DNA from: a virus
Reading direction: 5' to 3' (one strand)
IMG/VR virus record: IMGVR_UViG_3300045961_000347
Coordinates: 1 to 38,950 of that record
Length of the DNA stretch: 38,950 bases
Below the pieces are notes generated by a model. The model ran no database searches, was not told the origin of the DNA, and saw only the letters and a program-made list of their open reading frames with translations. The position numbers and the translations under genes were made by a program. Shown here piece after piece: positions 4,167 through 36,783 of the stretch. The stretch's first letter is position 1. Each line of letters begins with the position of its first letter.

Positions 4167-4934
4167 TTACTCTACAGTTTGGGCAATTAATGAAGGGGTG
4201 TTGGAATCCAATTTCAGAACTTCGATGTTGTATGACATTTGTTGCCAATCTGTATCTGAGTTCAATGCAAAATCCCCGTTTGGACTTATTTTAACGTATG
4301 GTAATGTGTAATTTGTAAGCTTACCTTCTGGGTTAGTGGCTTCGAAAAACAACTCACCAACAAAATCATCTTGACCAGACTCAACGCGACTTAATGACGC
4401 AGCTGGCACCGAGTAATCAACCTCAATTGGAGTATTGATGGCGATAGCACCACCGACGACGATTTCCAATAATGAATTAGTCAAGTTGATGTTGTAATCA
4501 TCACCTGCAACATAAGTTGGTGTACCACCAACACCGGTCACCACTACGGCCGAAATGTTAACTGGCGCGGTGTTGTTAGATTCACCGAGTTTGTAATAGT
4601 AACCCGGTGATACAGTGTGTGCTTCAGCTGTGACAGTGGCGACAGTCTGGGTAACTGTTGATGATGTTCCCAAGAAAAATATAGCCAGGTTATCAGCGTC
4701 GATATTATCGCAAATGTAAGATCCGGTTGTGTTAACTTCGAGAGTCACAGACTTATCTTTTACTCGAATGCCGTTGTCTGAATCAAAGTGATCCAAAGTA
4801 CTAGCTTCAAGAGCAAGGTTAAATTCTGGTGTGTTACCGATATAACGAAGGCCACCTATAAATGTTGCTAAATTATTACGGTTTCGAGCTCGCAGATAAA
4901 TTTTGCCCTTACCGAGTACCTGATTCTGAATCAT
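4167..4934 (-). CDS. Major tail (tail tube) protein
   Basis: 255 residues, starting at an ATG with AGGAG 7 nt upstream. The order tail terminator, tail tube, G/GT chaperone, tape measure identifies it, and the N-terminal pattern ('RNRNNLATFIGGLRYIGNTP', then a 'FNLALEASTLDHFDS' stretch) is typical of siphovirus tail tube subunits: a beta-rich fold with a long loop. An insert near residues 95-185, rich in V, T and G ('VVVTGVGGTPTYVAGDDYN'), looks like an added Ig-like or surface domain. Subunits would stack as hexameric rings round the tape measure. The assignment rests on context and general features. Confidence 0.82.
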   Translation of the reverse strand: MIQNQVLGKGKIYLRARNRNNLATFIGGLRYIGNTPEFNLALEASTLDHFDSDNGIRVKDKSVTLEVNTTGSYICDNIDADNLAIFFLGTSSTVTQTVATVTAEAHTVSPGYYYKLGESNNTAPVNISAVVVTGVGGTPTYVAGDDYNINLTNSLLEIVVGGAIAINTPIEVDYSVPAASLSRVESGQDDFVGELFFEATNPEGKLTNYTLPYVKISPNGDFALNSDTDWQQMSYNIEVLKLDSNTPSLIAQTVE

Positions 4935-4958
4935 ATAGATTCTCCTGTTACATTAAAT

Positions 4959-5447
4959 TTAAGCGTAAGGGTCATCTTCACGCTCTACGAACTTCAACAC
5001 AACCCTCAAATAAAAGTGAGCTTTGTAACTCAAATCATCAGGTGGTCGAACTATACCGCCGTCATTCGCAATATCGGTGAGCAATCCGCCCAGTAAGTAT
5101 GCGCTTTCGGTGGATTTTGTCACTAAAGACAAACACTTTTTAACATCAGCTAAAAGCAAATGCGCCGGGTCGGTTGGGTTGTCCTTATCGTCTTTCACAA
5201 ACCCTTGTAACAGTATGTCCCAATCATCAACCTTCTTTCTAGCACCAATATAACCGGCTTCAATATTTTTAAAATCAGGCCTCGGATATTCGAGTATGGA
5301 TATTAACGGCACTCGATCACTATCACCAAATACAGTACGACCACGGAAAACGTTAGCAATATCATGCTGGTAGCCATTAACAACGGTAATAGTACTTAGC
5401 TGGGTACTAAGTGCTTTTAATATTCGCAATCGCTTGCTGTCTGTCAT
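4959..5447 (-). CDS. Tail terminator-like protein (gpU position)
   Basis: 162 residues, between the gpZ-like tail completion gene and the tail tube gene, which is where the tail terminator lies in lambda-like phages. The ATG overlaps the preceding stop as ATGA and is preceded by AGGATAAAT. The sequence alternates short helices and strands ('LISILEYPRPDF', 'WDILLQGFVKDD', 'HFYLRVVLKFVE'), consistent with the small alpha/beta fold of gpU-type proteins that cap the tail tube and join it to the head. No diagnostic motif is visible, so the call depends on position. Confidence 0.62.
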   Translation of the reverse strand: MTDSKRLRILKALSTQLSTITVVNGYQHDIANVFRGRTVFGDSDRVPLISILEYPRPDFKNIEAGYIGARKKVDDWDILLQGFVKDDKDNPTDPAHLLLADVKKCLSLVTKSTESAYLLGGLLTDIANDGGIVRPPDDLSYKAHFYLRVVLKFVEREDDPYA

Positions 5448-9298: not shown

Positions 9299-10862
9299 TT
9301 TGACCACCTGAATTAGCACTCATATTTTTTTGATTAGCGGTAACAAACACCAGTTTTTTATCAGCTATCATATTAGCTTCACGTTGTCTTTGCTCAAAAA
9401 CGACGCGCCAGTCTTTACCAAGTTTTGCAATTTCATCCTCGTAAGTTGATAAACCAGACTCAATACGTAATATAGCAGCTTGAGTTTCTTTAAATTCATC
9501 AATTTGTCCACGGCTGGCGCCAATCCAGTCACAACGGCATAACGCCTCTTTATTCTGCCTATCGTAAAAATTAACACCAAGCGGTTTTGGTACTTCACCC
9601 ATAGCCCAAGCTTCTTCAAGCCATAAGCTATAACAATCATTGGCAAACCGATCTGCGACCATTTTTTTACGGGATTGCATAAATTTCCAAGTCTCACCCA
9701 TCGAGGCTCGTGCGGATGAGTAATTAGTCCGGGTATAATCGCGACTAAACTGCTCATATGATAACCCAAGACTAGCGGCCACATGTCTTAGCAAACTCTG
9801 TTCAAACGCTTCTCCGACTCCACCAGGTGTGCCAGGTGAGTCCAAGTTCAATTTAGTACCAGGATAAAGGTGTGGAATTTTAACACCGTCCAAATGGATG
9901 TTTTTGGAAGTACCGGTGTATGCCGCTACATCGGCTAAAAATTGCTGTGCGTAAGTCGGTAAACCACCATCTAAACCAAGACTGGCGTACGCTTCTGCGG
10001 GTGGTAATTCTGAAGTGATTGAAGCCGCATATGTAGCATTAACAATAGCTTGCTGAAGAGTCACATCTTTAAACTTTTTGGTCATCTTCATTTCTTTGAG
10101 AGTAGAAACCATGTCACCGACACCGCGACTCTGATCTACCCGCATTTGCTCAAAGATATGCAGAACTTGTTTTCTACCCCAAGGTTTACGAGCCGCCACT
10201 TCTTTCCACTTATGAGCAGATGCGAAATCGTAAACCTCACCCATATGTCCCATACGAATAAAATACGACAAGGCTTCCCCATACGAATCAACGCGAATAC
10301 CTTTTCTAACCTTTGGATCGGTGGTTAAATTGTGGGGGCTCGATAAACGATTCACATCAATCATTTGAATTGCAGTTCGGTATGGTCTCATGGGTCCGCT
10401 TTTCCACTCAGCCGTAGCTAAAACCTCGCCACATGATAGATAAGTACCAACAGCTAACCGGATCATCCCGGTAAGAGAATTCATTCCAGACGCGTCAATC
10501 CAATTATTACCAGACTCGGCATATAAACCAAAAGAGCTTTCAACGACTTGTTGAAACTCATCAGCCCAAACCGGATCGGCACCAAGGTACGCGTAATCTG
10601 GTCTCGCATTTAATTTGTATTGAGCTCCAACAATACTATCTCGATGGATATGCGCCGCACCAGCAATGAAACCATCATTACGACTAAGGTCAATACCACG
10701 AGCATCTAAGATCTCTTTTTCTTGAAATAAGGATGCATTGGCTGATTGAATGGGAGGCGTCCAAGATGCTAGCTCATGACTAGTACGAGAGCTCCCGTCA
10801 TGAGCACCTTCAGCACGAGGTTTTAATGGGACCTGATCTTGAACGCTAATAGTTACTGTCAT
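9291..10862 (-). CDS. Portal protein, lambda gpB family
   Basis: 523 residues, typical length for the lambda portal family (PF05136). Diagnostic stretches are the N-terminal arm with 'ARGIDLSRNDGFIAGAAHIH', the region 'GEVLATAEWK', the 'VDQSRGVGDMVSTL' segment, and 'LGLSYEQFSRDYTRTNYSSA' which is highly conserved in this family. Twelve copies form the DNA channel at one capsid vertex. The start overlaps the gpW-like stop as TGATG, and the end overlaps the protease start, so the three are translationally coupled. Confidence 0.95.
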   Translation of the reverse strand: MTVTISVQDQVPLKPRAEGAHDGSSRTSHELASWTPPIQSANASLFQEKEILDARGIDLSRNDGFIAGAAHIHRDSIVGAQYKLNARPDYAYLGADPVWADEFQQVVESSFGLYAESGNNWIDASGMNSLTGMIRLAVGTYLSCGEVLATAEWKSGPMRPYRTAIQMIDVNRLSSPHNLTTDPKVRKGIRVDSYGEALSYFIRMGHMGEVYDFASAHKWKEVAARKPWGRKQVLHIFEQMRVDQSRGVGDMVSTLKEMKMTKKFKDVTLQQAIVNATYAASITSELPPAEAYASLGLDGGLPTYAQQFLADVAAYTGTSKNIHLDGVKIPHLYPGTKLNLDSPGTPGGVGEAFEQSLLRHVAASLGLSYEQFSRDYTRTNYSSARASMGETWKFMQSRKKMVADRFANDCYSLWLEEAWAMGEVPKPLGVNFYDRQNKEALCRCDWIGASRGQIDEFKETQAAILRIESGLSTYEDEIAKLGKDWRVVFEQRQREANMIADKKLVFVTANQKNMSANSGGQNV

Positions 10863-23913: not shown

Positions 23914-24624
23914 CTACTCAATGGCGACCCTATTTTTAAACATCAACATAGTCTCTGGTAAATAAACCGATAGTAATTCTAAGATTGCTTTAGCATAAAT
24001 CTGAGCTTCAATCTGAGCGTGACTATCTATGCGCAAAGACAAAAAGTGCATAATGTTGTGCAAATCTTGCTTCCATAACCAATGGGTGTAATGATTTAAG
24101 TGAAGAAACATTCGGGCGTGCTCTGGTGCCACACCAAGATTAATAAAATACAAATAATCATCATAAGAGGATTTACAAGTATCATTTAATTTACTTTTAA
24201 AATAATCCTGATCCTGCTCTGATAAGTTATCTTCCTGGCCTTGTTTCGCAGTCTTGGCTTTTCCACCAACAACAGCAGGGGTATACCACTCTTCTGGTAA
24301 AGTGATATATCGACCAGACACCTCGTTTATCGTAGCGGTCCGATGCCTTACAAACTGCCGTGCTATAAATATTGGCATTTTCATTTCTATCCAGCATTCA
24401 ATCATTTCGAATGGTGTGGAATGTCGATGCTCCATTAAATACCGACAAAGTTTCAAATCCATATCTCGGGTTCTGCCGCTATCCATTTCATGAAAAGACA
24501 TACGAGCGCTATTAGCAGGATCTGTGTCATCCGCATCGAAAAAAGAATCTAAACGTCGGCTTGGTCCTGATAAGTTGCGTAAGGTAACAAAACCATGATC
24601 AAGAACTTTAATGGTATTACTCAT
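23914..24624 (-). CDS. thyX: Flavin-dependent thymidylate synthase ThyX
   Basis: 236 residues, normal length. The ThyX signature RHRTATINEVSGR is at about 93-105 (RHRx7S form, with NE), the FAD/dUMP binding motif. Other family parts: 'EHRHSTPFEM' and 'LHNIMHFLSLRIDSHAQIEA'. It makes dTMP from dUMP with methylene-tetrahydrofolate, NADPH and FAD, and so joins with the dUTPase and dNMP kinase genes at the right end. The ATG overlaps the stop of the small membrane gene (ATGA). Confidence 0.96.
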   Translation of the reverse strand: MSNTIKVLDHGFVTLRNLSGPSRRLDSFFDADDTDPANSARMSFHEMDSGRTRDMDLKLCRYLMEHRHSTPFEMIECWIEMKMPIFIARQFVRHRTATINEVSGRYITLPEEWYTPAVVGGKAKTAKQGQEDNLSEQDQDYFKSKLNDTCKSSYDDYLYFINLGVAPEHARMFLHLNHYTHWLWKQDLHNIMHFLSLRIDSHAQIEAQIYAKAILELLSVYLPETMLMFKNRVAIE

Positions 24625-24767
24625 AACTTATGCCTCATAAGGCCAACAAAACCAATACCAACAACAAGAGTCGGCATTAAAGCACCATCAATAATGTATT
24701 CAGAAATGCAAGCCATAAAAATAACAGCTAACACGGACAATGTTGCTACTATCAAATTCTTTTTCAT
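24621..24767 (-). CDS. 48-residue membrane protein
   Basis: ATG 24767 to TGA 24621, overlapping by 4 nt both the HTH-like gene before it and thyX after it. Two hydrophobic segments ('LIVATLSVLAVIFMACIS' and 'LVVGIGFVGL') around a short acidic turn predict two membrane passes. GGAAAAAC lies upstream. Tight coupling on both sides is the best support. It could be a small superinfection or regulatory membrane peptide, but no family is recognised. Confidence 0.7.
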   Translation of the reverse strand: MKKNLIVATLSVLAVIFMACISEYIIDGALMPTLVVGIGFVGLMRHKL

Positions 24768-24958
24768 AAAGTTTTTCCAATATCAATAATTTTTAAAACG
24801 TTGTTTTTATTGCTATAAATAGCACCTGTTTTTAAATCAATGACAGCGTTGTTACGAACTGACACCCAAGTTCGCAATGTAGTGTAAGACAAACCGTGTT
24901 TTACCGCGAAAGTTAGCAACGTTACGTTCTTACTTTTTATGAAATCTTTTAACTTCAT
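24764..24958 (-). CDS. Small HTH-like DNA-binding protein
   Basis: Start at ATG 24958 ('MKLKDFIKSKNVTLLTFAVK'), in a TAATG overlap with the GGDEF gene stop; 64 residues. 'LLTFAVKHGLSYTTLRTWVS' reads as a helix-turn-helix, followed by a short basic/beta tail. The longer frame to 24997 would overlap the GGDEF gene by 40 nt and has no SD. A role as a local repressor, perhaps of the GGDEF promoter with its palindrome, is possible but is inference. Confidence 0.6.
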   Translation of the reverse strand: MKLKDFIKSKNVTLLTFAVKHGLSYTTLRTWVSVRNNAVIDLKTGAIYSNKNNVLKIIDIGKTL

Positions 24959-25455
24959 TACTTTACCCCAACCCAACGTTTTACTGATAAACGCCACAAT
25001 GGCGTAGCTCCTCGCTCAACCCTTTGACCAGACCTCATCCGACGAGCCTTGTCATCTTTTAACATTATCTGATCAGCATAAGTCATAGTATTCCATACAC
25101 CAAAACTAAAACAATCGAAGTCTCTTCGACGTAATTGATCTAATTTGTTTGCTATTTCACCGATACTACTACCAACTACCGCAAACTCATCACCGCCTAT
25201 CCTGAAGACATCATCCTCACCAAATTCAAGTTTTAATTTTCTAGCCAATAGCTGTAACATTTGATTACCGGTTTGATGACCGAATGTGTCATTGATCCAT
25301 TTAAAAGAGTCCATATCGACAATTGCCACAACATCATAAAAGATGTTGTCAAAAGCTTTTCTGTTTTGAACCCCGGTTAGATGGTCACTCCAGATAGACT
25401 TAACTTTTTCGCATAGTGTCATTCTTACCGTTTCTCTGACAAATTGATGTCTCAT
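24958..25455 (-). CDS. Stand-alone GGDEF domain protein (diguanylate cyclase-like)
   Basis: 165 residues, a single GGDEF domain without sensor or membrane part. Conserved pieces in order: 'DHLTGVQNR' (24-32), 'VDMDSFKWINDTFGHQTG' with metal Asp47 and substrate Asn55, and the active loop 'RIGGDEFAV' with GGDEF at about 87-91. All catalytic signature residues are present. The inhibitory RxxD I-site expected five residues before GGDEF is absent (FGED there). Known GGDEF enzymes join two GTP into c-di-GMP. ATG 25455 has AGGTGA upstream and a dedicated promoter with a palindrome. The C-terminal 35 residues are not typical. Activity is inferred. Confidence 0.9.
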   Translation of the reverse strand: MRHQFVRETVRMTLCEKVKSIWSDHLTGVQNRKAFDNIFYDVVAIVDMDSFKWINDTFGHQTGNQMLQLLARKLKLEFGEDDVFRIGGDEFAVVGSSIGEIANKLDQLRRRDFDCFSFGVWNTMTYADQIMLKDDKARRMRSGQRVERGATPLWRLSVKRWVGVK

Positions 25456-25488
25456 ATCATCACCTACAATGTTTGGTTTGTTTTACTA

Positions 25489-25516
25489 ATATTAGCACAT
25501 TGTAGACAATGGTCAA
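25489..25516 (-). promoter_or_regulatory. Promoter and operator of the GGDEF gene
   Basis: Minus strand: -35 TTGACC (25516-25511), 16-nt spacer, -10 TAATAT (25494-25489). The spacer contains CATTGTCTACAATG (25511-25498), a 6+2+6 palindrome, the usual position for a repressor site. A further half-site CATTGTAG follows at 25471-25464 just before the SD. The core ATTGT-N2-ACAAT occurs again over the -10 of the rightward promoter near 36.78 kb. Confidence 0.65.
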
Positions 25517-25519
25517 CAA

Positions 25520-25720
25520 CTATTTTTCAGGAAAAAGACTTTTCAATATGCTCATTGCTGGAGATTCTTTTTCTTTACAATTCGGCGGGTCGAAATCGTT
25601 CACATCATAAGTGACACCGCACCTGGCACAATACATCTGGTCAGAGTATTGAACAGCTTCGCAACCATTGCGCTCAGCACCGCTAGTTCTAGCTTTTCGA
25701 GGTTTTTCAAAATTAGTCAT
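25520..25720 (-). CDS. Small CxxC zinc-ribbon-like protein
   Basis: Start at ATG 25720 ('MTNFEKPRKARTSG'), overlapping the previous stop as ATGA; 66 residues. The pattern 'QMYCARCGVTYDVNDFDPPN' with a following Cys gives C-x2-C...C, and 'DVNDFDPPNC' is typical of small phage proteins with a zinc ribbon. It is the last gene of the polymerase operon, 4 nt before the GGDEF promoter. Function unknown. Confidence 0.72.
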   Translation of the reverse strand: MTNFEKPRKARTSGAERNGCEAVQYSDQMYCARCGVTYDVNDFDPPNCKEKESPAMSILKSLFPEK

Positions 25721-26136
25721 GAGGTGATAATCCAATAGCAAGAAGTGGAGTTTTTAACAAAATTAAAAGCTGTTTGTACAGCAGGCGCACAGTTCCAAAC
25801 TTTATCAACGCTGTTAGTGTTAACCCCAAGGATCGGGCACCCCTCAGTGTCGAAGGTAGTGTTACCAGCATGAACACGAATACCAGTGAACTTAACACCA
25901 CACTTCTCGACGTGCGGTAACCCGATTGTAAAAAGTTCAATAGTTTCTTTTTGAAAACGATTTGAAAAAGTTATTTTAGCTTCATAAATACCTTCAGGAA
26001 TGCAAGTTTCTTTTGCAATTTTTATATTATTTGGTCGACCTACATCTTCAATGGCATAAAAAACCTCATCACCAATATGAACCTCACTCATGGTGGCATC
26101 TTTTTTATAACTTCTTACTTGTATTATGAATTTCAT
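25717..26136 (-). CDS. DUF5675-like protein
   Basis: 139 residues, start with GGAGG 8 nt upstream. The pattern 'AIEDVGRPNNIKIAKETCIP', 'GIYEAKITFSNRF' and 'GIRVHAGNTTFDTEGCPILG' matches DUF5675 (PF18925). The H-x-GN...T-E-G-C spacing is reminiscent of the catalytic His and Cys in YkuD-type L,D-transpeptidases, so a cell wall role is possible. It is ATGA-coupled at both ends inside the replication operon. The window has no other evident peptidoglycan enzyme. Confidence 0.7.
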   Translation of the reverse strand: MKFIIQVRSYKKDATMSEVHIGDEVFYAIEDVGRPNNIKIAKETCIPEGIYEAKITFSNRFQKETIELFTIGLPHVEKCGVKFTGIRVHAGNTTFDTEGCPILGVNTNSVDKVWNCAPAVQTAFNFVKNSTSCYWIITS

Positions 26137-29125: not shown

Positions 29126-30259
29126 CTATTTAACAGGATTGTTTTTAAATAATAAAGAGGAGTTAACCTCTTCGTCTTTGACAAGTCTTACAGACCCTTT
29201 CTTACTATCGGTAAAATAATCTACGATTGAGGTATCAATCGCCTTGTACTTCGCTTTGAATTGAATGGGAGTCATTAACTCAGTATCTTTTCTTGGGTCA
29301 GCTCCGATCAGCAACATACCTTCGATTATTTCTGATTTTTTTTCAGGTTTCCAAAATACACTGCCTCTACCGAACCCGATTGTATATTTACTAAATCTTT
29401 TCCCAGAATTTAACCTTGTTATCATTTGAGTTTTTATTGCATCAAATTTCTTTTTAAGAAGTTCACAATATTCTTCTAATAATTCATATTCGACTTCTAA
29501 ATCTGTATCACTTAACTCACTGATATTCAAATCAAACACGTGTTCAGTGATTTCACCTTCAAACATTCGGAATGTTTCACAAGCCCCAAGAGCTAAGCAA
29601 TTACTGCAATGTGGTCCTGCAACGGTGGGCGGATTGTCAGTGAATGCTAAAGAGGCTGAATGATTCATCTTATTAGCGTAATTTCGCAAATCAGAAGCTG
29701 TTATGTCGAATTCTCTTTTAACCCTTACAGAAGGACATCTAGGTTGATAAACTACCAACTTAACCTGTAAATATTCGTCAACGCGTCCGTTATAAACTCC
29801 ACCCAAAACGATATCAACGGCACCAACGGCGTAATTAATTAATTGCCAGCTGTTTGGTGCAACAAATTTTCTACCAAATTTATAGTCAAAAATAATGAGT
29901 TTTAACTGATATGGGTTGTAAATCCAAATGTCTGGATGACCCTCGTTAAATGGGGAAACCCTGGTTATGTGCATGTGCTCTTCAACATGGATTTGCCACT
30001 GACCTTCCCCGGTCATGTAACTAGAAACAATGTCCATAAACTCAAGAGCACCATCAACCATTTCATCAGTTAAAACCACACCATTGTCAGCCACATCCCC
30101 AACTCTTGGAAACCTACCTTTTGAAACCTCTCCGAATACCCAATGAGACGCGGTGCCCTCTCTAGACGATTCGGTTTCATCATTCGGATAACTAGATTCA
30201 GCAACGGCACTACCTGGACAAGGTACCCAGCGAGGGGCTCCAGAACTTCTTAGAATCAT
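29126..30259 (-). CDS. PD-(D/E)XK exonuclease (DUF2800-like)
   Basis: 377 residues. N-terminal 'RWVPCPGSAVAESSYPNDET' with 'REGTASHWVFGE', then the nuclease core 'GHPDIWIYNPYQLKLIIFDY' continuing into KFG (D...D-x-K), and a cluster 'CSNCLALGAC' that with the early Cys may bind an Fe-S centre, as in Cas4/AddB-like nucleases and DUF2800 (PF10926). It probably acts in recombination or DNA end processing. It overlaps the previous gene as ATGA. Confidence 0.85.
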   Translation of the reverse strand: MILRSSGAPRWVPCPGSAVAESSYPNDETESSREGTASHWVFGEVSKGRFPRVGDVADNGVVLTDEMVDGALEFMDIVSSYMTGEGQWQIHVEEHMHITRVSPFNEGHPDIWIYNPYQLKLIIFDYKFGRKFVAPNSWQLINYAVGAVDIVLGGVYNGRVDEYLQVKLVVYQPRCPSVRVKREFDITASDLRNYANKMNHSASLAFTDNPPTVAGPHCSNCLALGACETFRMFEGEITEHVFDLNISELSDTDLEVEYELLEEYCELLKKKFDAIKTQMITRLNSGKRFSKYTIGFGRGSVFWKPEKKSEIIEGMLLIGADPRKDTELMTPIQFKAKYKAIDTSIVDYFTDSKKGSVRLVKDEEVNSSLLFKNNPVK

Positions 30260-30972
30260 TTTCCAAGAGCCTCCATAGCTTTAACTCGAACATCATTGTT
30301 AGCACCCATAAAATGCATCACATTTGTGAAACCAAAACCTTGTAAAAACAACTTTGTGGAGTGATCATTTAAAGCGGAATTGTTAATAGCACCAATAAGT
30401 TCAGCAAAACTTACCACACGATCTATATGCACAACGGGAGGTAACGCTTCAGGCTCATCATCCATAACGTCCATAACTTCGGGCTCATCATCCATAACGT
30501 CCATAACTTCGGGCTCATCATCCATAACGTCCATAACTTCGGGCTCATCATCCATAACGTCCATAACTTCGGGTATCATTGGATTATCTTGAAACAAGAA
30601 TCCCGGTGGTGGTTCATCAAGGTGTGTTTCTAATTCTGGCGTTTTGCCAAGAAGCTCAGCTTCAACTTGGGGTACCAATGTTATTCGATCCACACCCTTC
30701 TTATAACGCCAGGTCTGATCAGCATTTTTGCTTTTACTGCTCGCGTGAATTCGTTCATCCCACGGAATTGTTTTCCTAGCATCGTAACCAATATCCAAAA
30801 CTTCGAGTTTTGATTGAAACGACTTCTGAAGATTTGGCGCCATAACTTCAATTGGTAAAGCATCCATTTCCTCTTGGGTTACGGTGTCTTCAATATCTGT
30901 GTTAAATGTTTGTAGCAAAGCTGCTACTGAAGTTAACTGATCAATAGTTAACCTTAGAGTTAGTTCTATCAT
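30256..30972 (-). CDS. Replication-operon protein with 10-residue tandem repeats
   Basis: 238 residues. The conserved part 'PWDERIHASSKSKNADQTWR' followed by YKKGVD is a recurring phage protein motif next to DUF2800 and SSB-type genes, function unknown. Near residues 133-172 there are four copies of EVMDVMDDEP, a very acidic linker. The C-terminal 50 residues ('VVSFAELIGAINNSALNDHS') look helical. First gene of its operon, behind a promoter with an operator palindrome; the ribosome site is weak. Confidence 0.8.
   Translation of the reverse strand: MIELTLRLTIDQLTSVAALLQTFNTDIEDTVTQEEMDALPIEVMAPNLQKSFQSKLEVLDIGYDARKTIPWDERIHASSKSKNADQTWRYKKGVDRITLVPQVEAELLGKTPELETHLDEPPPGFLFQDNPMIPEVMDVMDDEPEVMDVMDDEPEVMDVMDDEPEVMDVMDDEPEALPPVVHIDRVVSFAELIGAINNSALNDHSTKLFLQGFGFTNVMHFMGANNDVRVKAMEALGK
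30451..30570 (-). repeat. Four tandem 30-bp repeats in coding sequence
   Basis: Units at 30451-30480, 30481-30510, 30511-30540 and 30541-30570. Three are identical; the first differs by one base (A for G at 30451). Each codes for ten residues, EVMDVMDDEP. Because the unit is a multiple of three, copy number can vary without a frameshift. There are no spacers, so this is not a CRISPR array. Confidence 0.95.
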
Positions 30973-36360: not shown

Positions 36361-36380
36361 TTTTACGATTTCCGGTGATT

Positions 36381-36720
36381 TTTTTGTAGTTTTCTGTAGT
36401 TTTCTTATAGTTTTTACTACCCATTTTTGTAGTTTTTTAACTACGAGGCTGTTTTCGATTTTAGTTAAACCAACAACCGTTGTAAAATCATTTTTAAATT
36501 GGTTTTACAAAAAACTACATTTTTTGCCTTAAAACTACAACAAAACTACAAAAAACTACACTTCAAACTTTGATTTTACTTACTTTTTTATTATTTGTAG
36601 TTATTGTAGTTAATAAAATGAAAGTATTTTTATATAGAGAAATAAAAGTGTTTAATAGAACTAGGAGTTATAAAAGGTTACTGCTTATAACTGAAAAAAA
36701 ATAAAAATATATATAAAAAA
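36381..36720. other. Putative replication origin: iterons and AT-rich tract
   Basis: No gene fits in this 560-nt gap. GTAGTTTT-type units occur forward at 36386, 36396 and 36429 with a variant at 36407, and GTAGTTA at 36597 and 36606. The same unit inverted (AAAACTAC) is at 36416-36420 (partial), 36440-36444 (partial), 36511, 36531, 36542 and 36552. Between the arrays lie TTGTAAAA (36480-36487) and TTTTACAA (36503-36510), and ACAACCGTTGT. A nearly pure A/T tract (36693-36722) follows and could unwind. It lies between divergent replication and nucleotide genes, beside the primase operon. Confidence 0.72.
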
Positions 36721-36754
36721 ATACCGGTGAAAAAACAACTACATCGCTACAATG

Positions 36755-36783
36755 TTGACGGAGCCGTCATAATTGTATACAAT
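36755..36783 (+). promoter_or_regulatory. Rightward promoter with two operator-type palindromes
   Basis: -35 TTGACG (36755-36760), 17-nt spacer, -10 TACAAT (36778-36783). TGACGGAGCCGTCA (36756-36769) covers the -35 and ATTGTATACAAT (36772-36783) covers the -10. Transcription should start near 36790 and run through the membrane, kinase and dUTPase genes to the terminator at 38.8 kb. Confidence 0.8.

Follow-up and report, generated by a model that had tools for sequence, protein, structure and literature searches.

A compact stand-alone GGDEF protein of a phage, its tail-marked relatives and an altered base-reading residue

Introduction

What use would a virus have for a GGDEF protein without a sensor? 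The question is raised by a virus record of 38,950 bases (hereafter the window, meaning the whole stretch of DNA analyzed), which encodes terminase, a capsid/head protein, DNA polymerase, primase and ThyX, together with a small GGDEF gene. The overall explanation we favor, with a probability of about one half, is that this gene encodes a sensor-less phage GGDEF cyclase that would reset c-di-GMP physiology in the host. Here we set out the evidence for this explanation and weigh three others against it.

A single-domain GGDEF protein on a virus genome

The gene in question is the following:
24958–25455, minus strand: compact stand-alone GGDEF protein (YuA gp44 family), identified by PF00990, full-length orthologues, AlphaFold2 and Foldseek

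The open reading frame (ORF) starts with ATG and encodes 165 amino acids with a single GGDEF domain, which the PF00990 GGDEF profile matches at E=1.3e-16 (61.2 bits; Pfam cut-off 23.8). AlphaFold2, supplied with 13 aligned sequences, predicts a GGDEF fold (pLDDT 94.2, pTM 0.86). The top PDB matches found by Foldseek are all GGDEF domains (DgcR, PleD, WspR, DgcB and others), and the top viral fold match is the diguanylate-cyclase protein of Bordetella phage CN1 (TM 0.81/0.88). The protein has the features of a diguanylate cyclase, namely the metal aspartate D47, D89 and E90 of the GG[D/E]EF loop, and the phosphate-binding lysines K52 and K136. It lacks any sensor or receiver domain and bears an extra C-terminal tail.

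These results bear out a preliminary description of this DNA, which had proposed a stand-alone GGDEF enzyme on a phage with intact wide-turn, metal aspartate, KxxND and GGDEF motifs: DxLTG..NR lies at residues 24–32, DMDSFKWIND at 47–56 and GGDEF at 87–91. Kinship with mCpol/Cas10 palm domains was ruled out, as Pfam GGDEF is the only profile above its cut-off and both the PDB sequence matches and the best fold matches are GGDEF proteins. Origin as a bacterial-chromosome artefact or contaminant was likewise ruled out by the terminase, capsid, polymerase and primase genes of the virus record.

The rest of the window yielded no c-di-GMP riboswitch, no tRNA and, among the genes scanned, no PilZ or EAL domain; PADLOC returned a single negligible match to the window and none that was significant. 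A 30-bp tandem repeat (30447–30573; 4.2 copies, 98%) lies within an ORF at 30256–30972 and encodes EVMDVMDDEP repeats.

A known kind of gene, found in unrelated phages

The preliminary description treated GGDEF domains as normally host enzymes, and the novelty that this implied falls away. Stand-alone phage GGDEF genes are already a known kind, annotated in Pseudomonas and Bordetella phages. YuA gp44 has long carried the GenBank note 'contains diguanylate-cyclase domain; putative role in host cell conversion', a similar annotation is given to the proteins of Bordetella phage CN1 and Pseudomonas phage AN14, and GGDEF domains of polyvalent proteins were described in 2017. The fresh details are the tail-sharing lineage, the asparagine N64 and the second copy of an operator-like palindrome.

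A tblastn search of 50,697 phage records gave 155 matches, of which 48 span at least 80% of the query; nearly all of the 48, namely the best 47 listed, belong to Yuavirus/Vojvodinavirus-type phages that infect Pseudomonas or Bordetella, with 42–50% identity. Homology to YuA gp44 is full-length (44% identity over the alignment), with a single domain within 150–170 amino acids. On chromosomes, a family member turned up in one of 150 genomes of one phylum, on a short MAG contig whose gene is nearly identical to that of the Bordetella phages. On plasmids, the matches listed are ordinary cellular-type GGDEFs, with no family member among them.

Near relatives of the window protein were not found by a single-sequence scan of IMG/VR. 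Searching for sister phages by helicase gave only 38% relatives, which lack the GGDEF gene, and searching by DNA polymerase gave none. Of the 40 window proteins, the GGDEF protein alone matches YuA, of which the first 50 kb were searched, and we infer that the gene moves between phage lineages. Another virus contig (L030) carries, some 5 kb from each other (4543–5220 and 10001–10465), genes for a ThyX 64% identical to that of the window and for a GGDEF of the family with 35% identity. In Pseudomonas phage BL8 (L006, 3001–3468), an intact GGDEF ORF is unannotated, and the deposited anti-restriction coding sequence overlaps its 3' part.

Published observations offer a candidate phenotype. Lysogens of Bordetella phage LK3 form hyperbiofilm, for which a 2021 paper proposed the GGDEF gene as a cause; these lysogens also showed more flagellar motility (PMC8471281). 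The hyperbiofilm is a correlation, and raised motility runs opposite to a simple rise in c-di-GMP. Cyclases encoded on genomic islands and ICEs set a precedent for such enzymes on mobile elements (PMC10672970). Our literature searches found no paper on c-di-GMP together with Yuavirus, and no enzyme assay for any member of the YuA gp44 family.

A tail shared with GGDEF domains of giant phage proteins

In a tree of 67 rows, the window gene falls within a marked 21-row clade (95/93) with the YuA group, other compact loci and a 361-residue protein (L080). This clade adjoins GGDEF domains that form part of phage proteins some 2,700–4,400 amino acids long, in a deeper grouping that is weakly supported (52/76). 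The two giants that we scanned carry LPD38 and RadC domains in one case and InPase, Eco57I and helicase domains in the other, and are therefore polyvalent proteins. Embedded GGDEF domains also occur more widely, in phage proteins of about 1,200–4,400 amino acids (L032, L034, L037–L039, L041, L046, L051, L053, L059, L079, L091, L099, L100), and small stand-alone phage GGDEFs without the tail form at least three further separate clades (L081, L082, L085; L084, L092, L098; L061, L088, L093).

The tail of the stand-alone proteins, AD..L...K..R...G.R..RG..PPW, is common only to GGDEF domains in giant phage polyvalent proteins. The window protein fits the slightly relaxed pattern AD..[LM]...K..R...G.R..RG..P.W through A127, D128, K136, R139, G143, R145, G149, P152 and W154. 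An HMM built only from the 28-residue C-terminal tail of stand-alone proteins matches the giants L038, L034, L032, L059, L099, L100 and L046, as well as L080, with domain E values of 1.2e-6 to 0.006. Lower matches are the giant L041 (E 0.16) and L047 (E 0.33), and multi-domain cellular-type GGDEFs have E values of 9.5 or worse. Consistent with this, when the family model was run on whole genomes, cellular GGDEFs reached at most 71 bits and their alignments ended before the tail, compared with 234 bits over positions 1–156 for a family member. We read the tail from these scores as a shared derived mark of phage GGDEFs, whether free or embedded, and on sequence grounds the stand-alone YuA-type proteins and the polyvalent-protein GGDEFs form one phage-specific lineage that it marks. 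The window protein is not itself polyvalent in the sense of a multi-domain protein that is packaged and injected, being a single domain of 165 amino acids; only the GGDEF sub-lineage is common to the two.

Iyer et al. (2017) noted that polyvalent proteins can contain GGDEF domains and suggested that these interfere with nucleotide-based responses of the host; in the portion of that paper considered here (PMC5512222), we found no stated link to YuA-type proteins. Kinship with these domains is what places second, though as an unlikely explanation, the idea that the cyclic dinucleotide competes with or mimics the immune signal of CBASS or Panoptes-like immunity. The derived tail common to both groups speaks for it, as does the proposal of just such interference for polyvalent-protein GGDEFs, in proteins that are thought to enter the cell by injection and take part in conflicts with the host (PMC5512222). 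The next downstream gene in YuA, CN1 and AN14 is also annotated as anti-restriction, but that neighbor is not conserved outside the YuA group. In the window, the neighbors are thyX, a sliding-clamp-like protein and DNA polymerase rather than defense genes, and the lack of a significant PADLOC match counts against an immune role as well. Nor do we know of any immune effector that is blocked by c-di-GMP. Our preference for the resetting of host physiology comes from c-di-GMP being the default product and from the lysogen phenotype in the literature.

Conservation and constraint

Residues D47, D49, K52, N55, D56, R85, G88-D89-E90-F91, A127, D128, K136, R139, R145, G149 and P152 do not vary across 19 relatives (YuA-type genes, IMG/VR loci and one MAG), the invariance of GDEF and DxDS being partly by construction because the retrieval patterns favored those stretches, with N55, K136 and the tail exempt. 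Pairwise dN/dS among ten YuA-type genes is 0.26–0.55, which indicates purifying selection. Combining these observations, we conclude that the family maintains a putatively catalytic protein under moderate constraint. In Pseudomonas phage EKU1 (L012, 1534–2100), the gene is frameshifted, although its annotation still reads diguanylate cyclase, and so it is dispensable there.

The preliminary description was also right that the RxxD inhibitory site is missing, as F78 takes the place of the I-site arginine. This arginine is equally absent from 19/19 relatives and, judged at the aligned column, from the 17 multi-domain GGDEFs included in the comparison, so its loss is a family trait and no special mark.

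A candidate operator and a predicted operon that ends in thyX

The features around the gene are, from its promoter outward:
25489–25516, minus strand: sigma70-like promoter TTGACC-N16-TAATAT with TG before the -10, a consensus match only
25498–25511, unstranded: exact palindrome CATTGTAGACAATG (CATTGT-AG-ACAATG) in the promoter spacer, a putative operator read from the sequence
25464–25472, unstranded: half-site CTACAATGT, a 9-bp inverted repeat with 25497–25505 across the -10
36772–36783, unstranded: second operator-like palindrome ATTGTATACAAT, overlapping the -10 of an early promoter at 36755–36783 (plus strand), found by match to the core ATTGTNNACAAT
25520–25741, minus strand: small cysteine-containing protein (phrog_8641) upstream of the GGDEF gene, with a relative also directly upstream of a GGDEF gene in locus L026
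24764–24958, minus strand: 64-residue ORF with an ATG that overlaps the stop codon of the GGDEF gene (TAATG), HTH-like by weak resemblance
24621–24767, minus strand: 48-residue predicted membrane ORF with ATGA overlaps at both ends, from reading the overlaps
23914–24624, minus strand: ThyX thymidylate synthase, the last of four overlapping ORFs (Pfam Thy1, 142.6 bits)

The promoter sits between the upstream ORF, which stops at 25520, and the GGDEF start codon. The palindrome core ATTGTNNACAAT occurs exactly twice in the 38,950 bases, against 0.09 copies expected and with 0/100 shuffles reaching two; only the second copy counts as evidence, since the first is the site that supplied the search pattern. 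The promoter of that second copy lies within a large divergent intergenic region, where the CTACAATGT half-site recurs at 36747. When the intergenic stretch was shuffled 2000 times, an inverted repeat as long as the 9-bp one across the -10 arose in 26 cases. The GGDEF promoter and the divergent promoter likely share this putative operator. The operator-bearing promoter of the preliminary description thus stands in part: the exact spacer palindrome and its second copy in another promoter core lend it moderate support, but matches to the promoter consensus in general are no commoner in the window than chance predicts (51 found, 49.4 expected).

The claim that the gene is regulated apart from its neighbors is only partly borne out: the gene has a predicted promoter of its own, but for the genes downstream the claim is not supported. 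Overlapping stop and start codons (TAATG, ATGA, ATGA) run from GGDEF through the 64-residue ORF and the 48-residue membrane ORF to thyX, so that the promoter would serve an operon that includes thyX and not GGDEF alone. As a Cro-like repressor, the 64-residue ORF is a weak candidate, with a best Pfam E value of 0.15, a low-confidence structure model and no relatives by tblastn in phages.

Elsewhere in the divergent intergenic region, at 36379–36600, TGTAGTTTT / AAAACTACA repeats occur in both orientations and account for 7 of the 9 window copies of the 9-mer. This cluster could be possible origin iterons or operators.

Asparagine in the base-reading pocket

In PleD numbering, N335 and D344 are the two guanine-reading residues and correspond to N55 and position 64 of the window protein. 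Alignment to PleD places an asparagine (codon AAT) at position 64, so that of the guanine pair Asn335/Asp344 the first is present as N55 and the second is replaced by Asn64. The KxxND motif was thus correctly described as intact, but the other guanine-reading residue had been missed. Aspartate occupies this position in 19/19 relatives and in 65/66 other compared domains, and Asn64 is unique in its clade; L081, from a tail-less stand-alone clade, also has Asn there. Membership in the GGDEF fold stands as judged from motifs and model, and strict guanine specificity does not follow from it.

Hypr enzymes, which also make cGAMP, carry Ser or Thr at the D344 site together with GGDE[F/Y]; substitution there combined with GGDEF, not GGEEF, is their hallmark, and a D-to-S change at this position inactivated four of five canonical enzymes in the Hypr study (PMC6456294). 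By that precedent, the window copy could be weak, promiscuous or dead. Asparagine is neither the canonical nor the Hypr residue, and the product of this particular copy is therefore not predictable.

Two further explanations start from this residue, and we regard both as improbable. According to one, the Asn64 copy behaves in a Hypr-like manner, with 3',3'-cGAMP, c-di-AMP or a mixture as its product. The uniqueness of N64 fits this idea, as does the GGDEF form of the motif. Hypr enzymes, however, have Ser/Thr and not Asn, the other guanine contact (N55) is intact, and a single GAT-to-AAT change separates N64 from the canonical residue, so that a recent mutation or assembly error is possible. 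According to the other, the enzyme is degenerate, keeping the GGDEF fold but making no messenger, and instead binds nucleotide or c-di-GMP or regulates the expression of phage genes. N64 would agree with such decay, as would a one-residue insertion before the K136 segment, the frameshifted EKU1 copy and translational coupling with a short ORF whose product may bind DNA. Set against these, the metal Asp, K52, N55, R85, GDEF and K136 are all kept, and dN/dS in the YuA group shows constraint.

Discussion

A sensor-less cyclase acting on host c-di-GMP remains our best explanation. The gene would encode, within the phage-specific lineage, a GGDEF nucleotidyl cyclase that is minimal and constitutively competent. 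By analogy with characterized GGDEF enzymes, two copies would pair, each holding one GTP, and produce a cyclic dinucleotide that is most likely c-di-GMP; the primary I-site would impose no limit. As the protein has neither a sensor domain nor a primary I-site, its activity would be set by transcription, and the operon GGDEF–64-residue ORF–membrane ORF–thyX would be switched on early or in the middle of infection from the operator-controlled promoter. The purpose may be to reset c-di-GMP-controlled motility, pili and surface polysaccharide of the host during infection or lysogeny. The roles put forward in the preliminary description, namely fixing the host in a sessile state, phage decision-making and interference with defense, are hypothetical.

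Our confidence differs between these parts. The window protein is probably an active cyclase and c-di-GMP is more likely than not its main product, while host reprogramming as the purpose is tentative. Counting for the whole are the fold and motifs, the invariant residues, dN/dS, the 95/93 clade, retention in unrelated phages, the LK3 hyperbiofilm and the precedent on mobile elements. Counting against it are N64, the LK3 motility, the EKU1 frameshift, the absence of riboswitch, PilZ and EAL from the window, and the lack of a published assay in our searches.

Phage-encoded cyclases would let a virus directly write the lifestyle signal of its host. Linking the free enzymes with polyvalent-protein GGDEFs brings dispersed annotations together as a single family that is open to testing, and Asn64, as a natural variant, raises the question of phage-cyclase messengers other than c-di-GMP. 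A bolder and improbable extension is that phages own a tail-marked GGDEF lineage, deployed in two ways, as a free early enzyme and as a warhead carried by injected polyvalent proteins, whose product is used against host nucleotide immunity and not simply as biofilm c-di-GMP, the N64 copy being base-shifted.

Among known systems, the YuA gp44 family (Yuavirus, Vojvodinavirus; Mesyanzhinovviridae) is alike in length, domain, motifs and C-terminal tail, likewise lacks the I-site Arg, and includes full-length orthologues 44–48% identical to the window protein. Beyond this gene, the window phage is unrelated to the YuA group, its capsid being nearest to Suzuki/AhaSv/Nazgul/AH2-type phages; its protein has GGDEF in place of S/AGDEF and N64 in place of D, and its gene is coupled to thyX, whereas the YuA-family gene adjoins an anti-restriction gene. 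Cellular diguanylate cyclases (PleD, WspR, DgcR, SadC) share fold and catalytic residues with the window protein, which, unlike them, lacks sensor and receiver domains as well as the I-site Arg and bears an extra tail. The mCpol/OptS proteins of Panoptes are likewise small single-domain palm-fold cyclases, but the GGDEF motif is nearly absent from OptS proteins (PMC12657218), and neither OptS nor mCpol is among the PDB sequence matches or 50 best fold matches listed for the window protein. Hypr GGDEF enzymes (GacA, Bd0367) resemble it in combining an altered Watson-Crick-face residue with the GGDEF motif, and differ in having Ser/Thr rather than Asn. The GGDEF domains of polyvalent proteins (Iyer et al. 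2017) are also compact, with a DSLKW.ND motif and a K...G.R..RG..PP tail; there, the domain is one of several in proteins of about 2,700–4,400 amino acids with LPD38, RadC, InPase, methylase or helicase domains, whereas the window GGDEF is free-standing, with its own predicted promoter.
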